NCBI RefSeq assembly: GCF_040892545.1
Contig: NZ_CP156079.1
Location: forward strand, 2,701,501-2,765,500
From: Paracidovorax avenae
GTDB taxonomy: Bacteria; Pseudomonadota; Gammaproteobacteria; Burkholderiales; Burkholderiaceae_C
Direction: 5' to 3'
DNA: 64,000 nucleotides
Made by a program: the position numbers and the translations under genes. Under the pieces are notes generated by a model. It made no database searches. It was not told the origin of the DNA and saw only the letters and a program-made list of their open reading frames with translations. This document shows, piece by piece, positions 61,521-64,000 of this stretch (position 1 is the first letter of the stretch; every line of letters starts with the position of its first letter).

Positions 61521-62840
<1,320 letters not shown>

Positions 62841-62847
62841 TCAGCCG

Positions 62848-62878
62848 CCGCGGGCGGGCCCTTGCGGCCCGCCCGCGG
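62848..62878 (+). terminator. GC-rich hairpin after aceA
   Basis: CCGCGGGCGGGCC at 62848-62860 and GGCCCGCCCGCGG at 62866-62878 form a 13-bp perfect stem with loop CTTGC. It starts eight bases after the aceA stop. There is no T-tract, so it may act as a partial or Rho-aided terminator or as 3' end protection. Confidence 0.65.
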
Positions 62879-62886
62879 GCACGGGT

Positions 62887-62892
62887 TAGAAT
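62887..62892 (+). promoter_or_regulatory. Probable -10 box of the thrS leader transcript
   Basis: TAGAAT lies 35 bases before the leader peptide ATG. The -35 would fall in the right arm of the aceA hairpin and is not recognisable. The same hexamer precedes the tRNA-Pro and fadB genes. Confidence 0.42.
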
Positions 62893-62926
62893 GCCTGCAT
62901 CAACCACTTGCAAGGGCGAGAAAGGC

Positions 62927-62977
62927 ATGACGGTTATGACACCGCGAACTACGGAGACCTCCTCCAGCAGCCGCTAG
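62927..62977 (+). CDS. thrS leader peptide, threonine-rich
   Basis: A 16-codon ORF encodes MTVMTPRTTETSSSSR. Five of 16 residues are Thr (codons ACG, ACA, ACT, ACG, ACC at 62930, 62939, 62948, 62951 and 62957). AGAAAGG lies just before the ATG as a modest ribosome binding site. It precedes the threonyl-tRNA synthetase gene and a terminator. Its codons overlap the first of four pairing segments of an attenuator. The function is read from design: ribosomes stalled for lack of charged tRNA-Thr would prevent termination. Confidence 0.82.
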   Translation: MTVMTPRTTETSSSSR

Positions 62978-63057
62978 GCTGCATGTTCGCGCCTGCACGT
63001 CACTCATTGTTGCCTGCACCCCCGAAAAAGCGCGGACATCGTTCCGCGTTTTTTTTT
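62943..63057 (+). promoter_or_regulatory. Transcription attenuator of thrS
   Basis: Four segments pair in alternative ways. Segment 1 CGCGAAC (62943-62949, inside the leader ORF) pairs with segment 2 GTTCGCG (62985-62991). Segment 2, extended to 62992, pairs instead with segment 3 GCGCGGAC (63030-63037), all eight bases with one G-U. Segment 3 also forms the terminator stem with segment 4 TCCGCG (63043-63048). A GCAGCC/GGCTGC hairpin at 62967-62982 nests in the 1:2 structure. This is the classical protector, antiterminator and terminator layout. Confidence 0.8.
63025..63057 (+). terminator. Intrinsic terminator in the thrS leader
   Basis: CGCGGA at 63031-63036 pairs with TCCGCG at 63043-63048 around a 6-base loop. 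Nine T follow, with an A-tract before the stem. It lies 49 bases upstream of the thrS start codon, so it controls read-through into thrS. Confidence 0.9.
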
Positions 63058-63106
63058 CGCCTTCGCTTTTCTCGCGCATCCTCCCGTCGAACCAAGGCTC
63101 CATCAC

Positions 63107-64000
63107 ATGATCCGGATCACGCTCCCCGACAACTCCCAACGCGAATACGCCGGCCCCGTCTCCGTGGCCGACGTGGCCCAGTCCATCGGGCCGGGGCTCG
63201 CCAAGATGACCGTGGCCGGCAAGGTCGATGGCCGCCTGGTGGACGCCAGCGATGTGATCGACCACGACGCGCGCCTGCAGATCATCACTCCGCGGGACCA
63301 GGAGGGCGTGGAAATCATCCGCCACTCCTGCGCCCACCTGGTGGGCCATGCCGTCAAGCAGCTCTACCCGACGGCGAAGATGGTGATCGGCCCGGTGATC
63401 GAGGAGGGCTTCTACTACGACATCGCCTATGAGCGTCCCTTCACGCCCGAAGACCTCGCGGCGATCGAGCAGCGCATGAAGGAACTCATCGCGCAGGATT
63501 ATGACGTCGTCAAGAAGATGACGCCCCGCGACGAGGTGATCGAAGTCTTCCGCGAGCGTGGCGAGGAATACAAGCTGCGCCTCGTGGAGGACATGCCCGA
63601 CGAGAAGGCCATGGGCCTGTACTACCACCAGGAATACGTGGACATGTGCCGCGGCCCGCACGTGCCGAACACCCGCTTCCTGAAAGTGTTCAAGCTCACG
63701 CGCGTCTCCGGTGCCTACTGGCGCGGCGATGCCAAGAACGAGCAGCTGCAGCGCATCTACGGCACCGCCTGGGCCGACAAGAAGGACCTGGAGGCGTACG
63801 TCAAGCGCATCGAGGAAGCCGAAAAGCGCGACCACCGTCGCCTCGGCCGCGAGCTCGACCTGTTCCACATCGACGAGCACTCCCCCGGCACGGTCTTCTG
63901 GCACCCGAAGGGCTGGACGATCTGGCAGGGCGTGGAGCAGTACATGCGCCAGGTGTACCGCGACAACGGCTACCAGGAGGTCAAGGGCCCGCAGATCCTC
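63107..64000 (+). CDS. thrS: Threonyl-tRNA synthetase (partial, runs off right edge)
   Basis: The first 298 residues are visible, and the frame is open to the window end. A TGS domain covers about 1-61 ([16 protein letters not shown]). The editing domain has HSCAH at 73-77 in [20 protein letters not shown] and the third pair in [12 protein letters not shown]. The catalytic core begins near 245 with [20 protein letters not shown] and TVFWHPKGW. It charges tRNA-Thr and edits Ser. The leader upstream carries a Thr-codon attenuator, so expression probably rises when charged tRNA-Thr is scarce. Confidence 0.96.

Follow-up and report, generated by a model that had tools for sequence, protein, structure and literature searches.

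The window analysed here, a stretch of 64,000 nucleotides from Paracidovorax avenae, belongs to a genome made up of one contig of 5.63 Mb. The region of interest (62841-63106) is flanked by aceA, of the isocitrate lyase family, on one side and by thrS, encoding threonyl-tRNA synthetase (ThrRS), on the other. The closest named relatives, as judged by the N-terminal part of ThrS, are Paracidovorax citrulli, cattleyae and oryzae. Genes with IF3, L35, L20, PheS, PheT, IHF/HU-type and MerR domains lie downstream of thrS, so that the gene order behind the leader reads thrS-infC-rpmI-rplT-pheST followed by an IHF-like gene. An initial annotation had described a transcription attenuator based on threonine codons ahead of thrS, and direct reading of the letters from 62841 to 63106 recovered in place all the features it named; those retained are listed in Table 1. 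Among the 51 family leaders, 39 have a match of five out of six positions to TATAAT on their 5' side; in the rows printed, its distance to the core is mostly 44-56 nt. A G+C-rich inverted repeat without a T run has also been observed between aceA and the leader (62849-62879), and may mark where the aceA transcript ends.

Table 1. Elements of the thrS leader and their position in the window.
Feature	Position	Strand	Basis
-10-like box TAGAAT, probable leader promoter	62887..62892	+	sequence; 5-of-6 match in family leaders
Shine-Dalgarno-like GAAAGG of the leader	62920..62925	+	sequence; GAGAAAGG recurs at the same place in the family leaders printed
Near-invariant 18-nt core GGTTATGACACCGCGAAC, coding for MTPRT	62932..62949	+	comparison of relatives
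Leader peptide gene MTPRTTETSSSSR, 13 codons, 4 Thr; stop TAG 62975-62977	62936..62977	+	conserved MTPRT start; in-frame Thr excess after codon 5
Segment 1, CGCGAAC, inside codons 3-5	62943..62949	+	perfect complement of segment 2; fold
Small hairpin, stop codon at the loop, nested in the 1:2 hairpin	62967..62982	+	folds
Segment 2, GTTCGCGC, partner of segment 1 or segment 3	62985..62992	+	sequence; pairing against shuffles
Segment 3, GCGCGGAC, antiterminator partner and left terminator arm	63030..63037	+	sequence; folds; pairing against shuffles
Intrinsic terminator, 13-pair stem 63024-63036 / 63043-63055, T run 63049-63057	63024..63057	+	folds; compensatory pairs in relatives
thrS, threonyl-tRNA synthetase, continuing past the window edge	63107..64000	+	TGS and tRNA_SAD domains

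Comparative data on the leader come from two family sets that overlap in species: one of 90 loci, combining the 30 best ThrS matches with 60 others from the same listing, mostly one per genus, and a named set of 80 loci. The 18-nt core precedes thrS in 75 of the 90 and 78 of the 80 loci, is lacking from the other 15 and 2, and is exact in 151 of the 153 core-bearing family loci, with one change (GGAC) in the remaining two. When 399 genomes of Burkholderiales were searched, the matches listed comprised 31 exact and 15 one-mismatch ones; every one of the 46 points the same way as thrS and sits 113-280 nt ahead of it, which excludes the core as a general repeat. Most of the two-mismatch matches that were fetched are not next to thrS, those that are being MTPLT forms and L180. 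Outside the window's own family (f1), the core leader is shared by eight further Burkholderiales families (f3, f8, f10, f32, f35, f39, f47 and f23, the last only as the MTPLT form). More distant Thr leaders, with Arg-Thr encoded as CGA-ACN, were recognised by eye in f5, f6, f14, f22, f28 and f51, among others. Two leaders look decayed, namely L164, with three changes in the core and ATA in place of the start codon, and L069, with six changes.

The leader open reading frame had first been described as 16 codons with five Thr codons, MTVMTPRTTETSSSSR (62927-62977). Such a frame is present, and its likely start is the second ATG, at 62936. Only 20 of the 153 core-bearing family leaders (13 of 75 from the 90-locus set and 7 of 78 from the named set) have an in-frame ATG corresponding to 62927, and the Shine-Dalgarno-like GAAAGG lies 1 nt from it, which is too close, as against 10 nt for 62936. 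Since the first ATG is rare in relatives and badly spaced from this site, leader translation probably starts at 62936, the equivalent of the ATG at which the relatives' common peptide begins with MTPRT, and would yield MTPRTTETSSSSR.

A strong bias toward threonine has been detected in this peptide. The expected conservation of Thr codons was borne out, with codons 2 and 5 retained by all 74 genus representatives, although these were picked for the core, which leaves this figure with little force as proof by itself and means that only codons past the core count for a test of threonine. From codon 6 on, Thr accounts for 111 of 492 in-frame codons in the 51 family genera (1.6% and 3.2% when the other two frames are read) and for 29 of 188 in 23 genera of other families (1.8% and 5.5%). 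At codon 6 the third base is free (ACA 11, ACC 13, ACG 17, ACT 4). Because this in-frame excess is accompanied by free third bases, the leader peptide is evidently translated and selected for threonine. Threonine excess apart, both sequence and length (10 to 27 codons) vary past codon 5, and 13 of the 74 representatives carry no Thr codon besides the two of the core, which counts against an attenuator. A rule demanding a Thr-rich ORF with a Shine-Dalgarno-like site before thrS was satisfied by just 18 of the 42 core leaders of other families. Of 70 other Burkholderiales loci, sampled irrespective of the core, 12 also satisfied it (0.4 in shuffles; 70 of 71 genomes examined, G386 being omitted as its match begins at residue 20), most of the other families sampled thus having no obvious Thr leader. 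Outside the order, none of 45 loci satisfied it (0.3 in shuffles); this sample covers 45 of 132 genomes of the class, two loci being dropped where the stretch ends at a contig end and one belonging to the window's family.

The base pairing drawn for the window proved accurate in its details. Segment 1 is complementary to GTTCGCG (62985-62991), segment 2 is complementary over eight bases, with one G-U, to segment 3, GCGCGGAC, the terminator ends in nine T residues located 49 bases before thrS, and Thr codons stand at 62948 and 62951. The folds of 62900-63060 (z -3.79, with 1 of 200 dinucleotide shuffles as good) and 62960-63060 (z -3.83, 0 of 200) are more stable than expected, and folding recovers a hairpin with a T run on the + strand that was missed by a simple consensus terminator scan, which reported no + strand terminator here and only a - strand one at the same hairpin. 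When the stretch between the core and the terminator of the window's leader was shuffled 200 times, 1.5% of the shuffles matched the 1:2 energy and 1.0% matched the 2:3 energy.

Among relatives, the three pairings fared unequally: the terminator covaries and the 2:3 pairing beats shuffles within and outside the family, whereas the 1:2 pairing is above chance in the family only. The finder used recovered a terminator for 189 of the 195 core leaders and none for the other six. Two-sided changes occur in 3 of its 11 pairs across 20 leaders of f8, f35 and f47 (alignment A2, 20 of 24 references), in which rows L196 and L197 seem broken at some terminator pairs, and in 1 of 17 pairs by RNAalifold in the family alignment (A1, 36 of 42 references). 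The 1:2 pairing shows no variation in the latter, whose rows were chosen for GTTCGCG. Pairing of the stretch between core and terminator, with the left terminator arm (2:3) and with segment 1 (1:2), was compared with shuffles of that stretch in 74 genus representatives drawn from the 195 core leaders, a selection without the coreless family loci (15 of 90 and 2 of 80). The mean z for 2:3 is -1.23 over the 74 genera (-1.22 in the family and -1.27 elsewhere), while that for 1:2 is -1.25 in the family and -0.33, near chance, in the 23 genera of other families; as the genera are related, these pooled values, like those of the simulation below, overstate independence. Taken singly, only 19 of the 74 leaders reach p<=0.05 for 1:2 and 17 for 2:3. 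Cognate pairs of segments 2 and 3 were matched by swapped partners in none of 5000 permutations, and in 164 of 5000 when partners were swapped within families. In the form drawn, the three pairings apply to the window and its nearer relatives; the sequence of segment 2 differs elsewhere.

Taken together, the threonine excess, the kept and covarying terminator and the 2:3 pairing lend support to the reading of this region as a Thr-codon attenuator before thrS, and the leader is very probably a classical ribosome-mediated transcription attenuator sensing charged tRNA-Thr ahead of thrS and the genes that follow. Of the elements associated with such a device, a short ORF rich in Thr codons (4 of 13 codons in the window, with the excess also seen in relatives), an intrinsic terminator between this ORF and thrS and an antiterminator (2:3) that excludes the terminator have been found, while an anti-antiterminator (1:2) within reach of the control codons stands out from shuffles in the window and its family and hardly elsewhere. 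From the arrangement of these elements we infer ribosome stalling, structural switching and a response to threonine. With plentiful Thr-tRNA, the ribosome would reach the stop codon and extend into segment 2, covering it, so that the terminator (3:4) would form and transcription would end before thrS. When Thr-tRNA is scarce, the ribosome would stall at Thr codon 2, 5 or 6 and mask segment 1, leaving segment 2 to pair with segment 3; the terminator would then be prevented, and transcription would run on into thrS and the genes that follow. If no ribosome is present, 1:2 and 3:4 would form. In a rough folding simulation, mean upstream pairing of segment 3 over the 74 representatives was 0.63 with no ribosome, 0.82 with a ribosome at codon 2, 0.77 at codon 5 and 0.62 at the stop, the codon-5 stall exceeding the stop in 59 of 74 leaders and the ribosome-free state in 56. 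The values for the window (0.98 with no ribosome, 1.00 at codons 2 and 5, 0.68 at the stop) do not separate the ribosome-free state. The switch may also set the genes beyond thrS, unless inner promoters exist, and with the genes for IF3, L35, L20 and PheRS following thrS, threonine supply could set several translation genes together.

One property of the leader is left over by this model. Silent sites in the core, and its bases 5' of the start codon, are nearly frozen, while segment 2 varies; this freezing exceeds what an attenuator needs, and pairing alone does not explain it. A double input, in which a trans factor (ThrRS, tRNA-Thr or another RNA) would read the core or the terminator loop besides the stalling at Thr codons, would explain why 18 nt are almost frozen across families while segment 2 changes, and is regarded as improbable. 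Binding of ThrRS in place of threonine sensing by the ribosome, with the start region or the terminator hairpin mimicking the anticodon arm of tRNA-Thr and leading to autorepression, appears very improbable. Such mimicry controls E. coli thrS (PMC11088916), and core freezing beyond pairing needs would fit it as well. Of the 51 family terminator loops, 22 contain a Thr anticodon triplet (NGU), against 13.5 expected (as many in 6 of 1000 shuffles), but in other families the figure is only 11 of 23 against 8.2 expected (137 of 1000). Moreover, few leaders of the order have a mimic-like hairpin less than 130 nt from thrS (5 of 51, 6 of 42 and 1 of 70, with 1.6, 0.9 and 2.0 expected), 9 of the first 11 being the terminator itself, and the in-frame Thr excess would be left unexplained. 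An operator of the E. coli type was rejected for the window, as its leader is not among the matches of a detector that finds the E. coli hairpin 21 nt before thrS.

A plain terminator with constant read-through and no sensing, for example one left from a tRNA-Val gene, could be imagined from the many loci of other families in which tRNA-Val, a similar terminator and thrS occur with no obvious Thr leader, and from some family members (such as L112 and L129) where the terminator has been kept and the leader is absent. Nonetheless, it would account for neither the leader, nor the selection for threonine, nor the excess of 2:3 pairing, and it is judged very improbable. The invariance of MTPRT in the 51 family representatives, a set chosen for the core, might suggest that the short ORF is a working micropeptide or acts by translation alone, for example against Rho, instead of sensing threonine, but past codon 5 only the Thr excess is constant, the core is frozen at silent sites too and the intrinsic terminator is retained, and this reading is rated very improbable.

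Leader-peptide attenuators are known from amino acid operons and pheST, such as thr, trp, his and pheST in E. coli. The thrS leader resembles them in having a short ORF with codons for the amino acid that is sensed, the alternative pairings 1:2, 2:3 and 3:4, and a terminator before the gene, and departs from them in its target, thrS, in the Thr at codon 2 of the leader and in the near-invariant core that spans the start codon. It does not correspond to an element already in Rfam 15, as the only match within 62500-63400 has an E value of 4.3 and falls far below the gathering score, and in 20 related loci only tRNA reaches that score; the families of Rfam 15 include the T-box and the threonine operon leader. 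Going by its title, the survey of Lopatovskaya et al. 2010 (doi 10.1134/S0026893310010164, cited in PMC4833913) deals with attenuation in amino acid and aminoacyl-tRNA operons, and this comparative study may have predicted a thrS attenuator earlier. In the open-licence literature consulted (PMC2965389, PMC4833913, PMC11088916, PMC3858243, PMC3110155, PMC5688073 and PMC2659441), no description of a Thr attenuator of thrS has been found. Short 5'UTRs number 82 in a study on B. cenocepacia, those of two tRNA synthetase genes included, which its text gives by locus tag only (PMC5688073).

E. coli ThrRS binds leader hairpins that resemble the anticodon loop of tRNA-Thr and blocks translation (PMC11088916; PMC3858243). 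The present system shares the gene and the placement of control within the mRNA leader, and differs in its terminator and Thr leader and in that no anticodon-like hairpin was found. Outside the order, an anticodon-mimic hairpin (NGU loop) has been detected a short distance ahead of thrS in 25 of 45 leaders from gammaproteobacteria, with 1.5 expected in shuffles, and at least one match, L311, is rather a terminator. From these comparisons, control of thrS seems to differ between Burkholderiales and groups outside it. While textbook control of E. coli thrS relies on the enzyme binding to a tRNA mimic, here the charging of tRNA is apparently read through a Thr leader, and the presence of this leader in several families of one large order, with the mimic in many relatives outside, would represent one gene changing its sensing logic. 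A His leader peptide precedes genes of the hisS family in bacilli (PMC2965389). That system is likewise one of leader-peptide control of a synthetase gene or a relative of one, in a different phylum and with a different amino acid.

The thrS gene itself appears to have a separate history from its leader. Among the matches listed, ThrS of 29 genomes from 14 genera is 82-100% identical to that of the window, and the others show about 61-66%. A tree built from the N-terminal parts of 94 ThrS proteins places the window type among ThrS from outside the order (100/100, in a bootstrap that had not converged), next to L311 (family f61) and L241 (f45), while other family members group with the order. 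In the 90-locus set, thrS of the window type has the core leader ahead of it at 24 of 29 loci, and thrS of the other type at 51 of 61. The window-type thrS was probably acquired by horizontal replacement behind the same leader, which appears to have persisted when the gene under its control was exchanged for a distant version. Outside the order, the ThrS nearest to that of the window belongs to L311 (80% identity), where a short ORF of its own, MSTTTAQR, and then a terminator-like hairpin precede thrS. In many loci, both of the order and of the class, the gene immediately ahead of thrS is a tRNA whose anticodon loop resembles that of tRNA-Val(GAC), an identity read by eye, and in some families, f35 and f47 among them, the leader is located behind this tRNA-Val-like gene.
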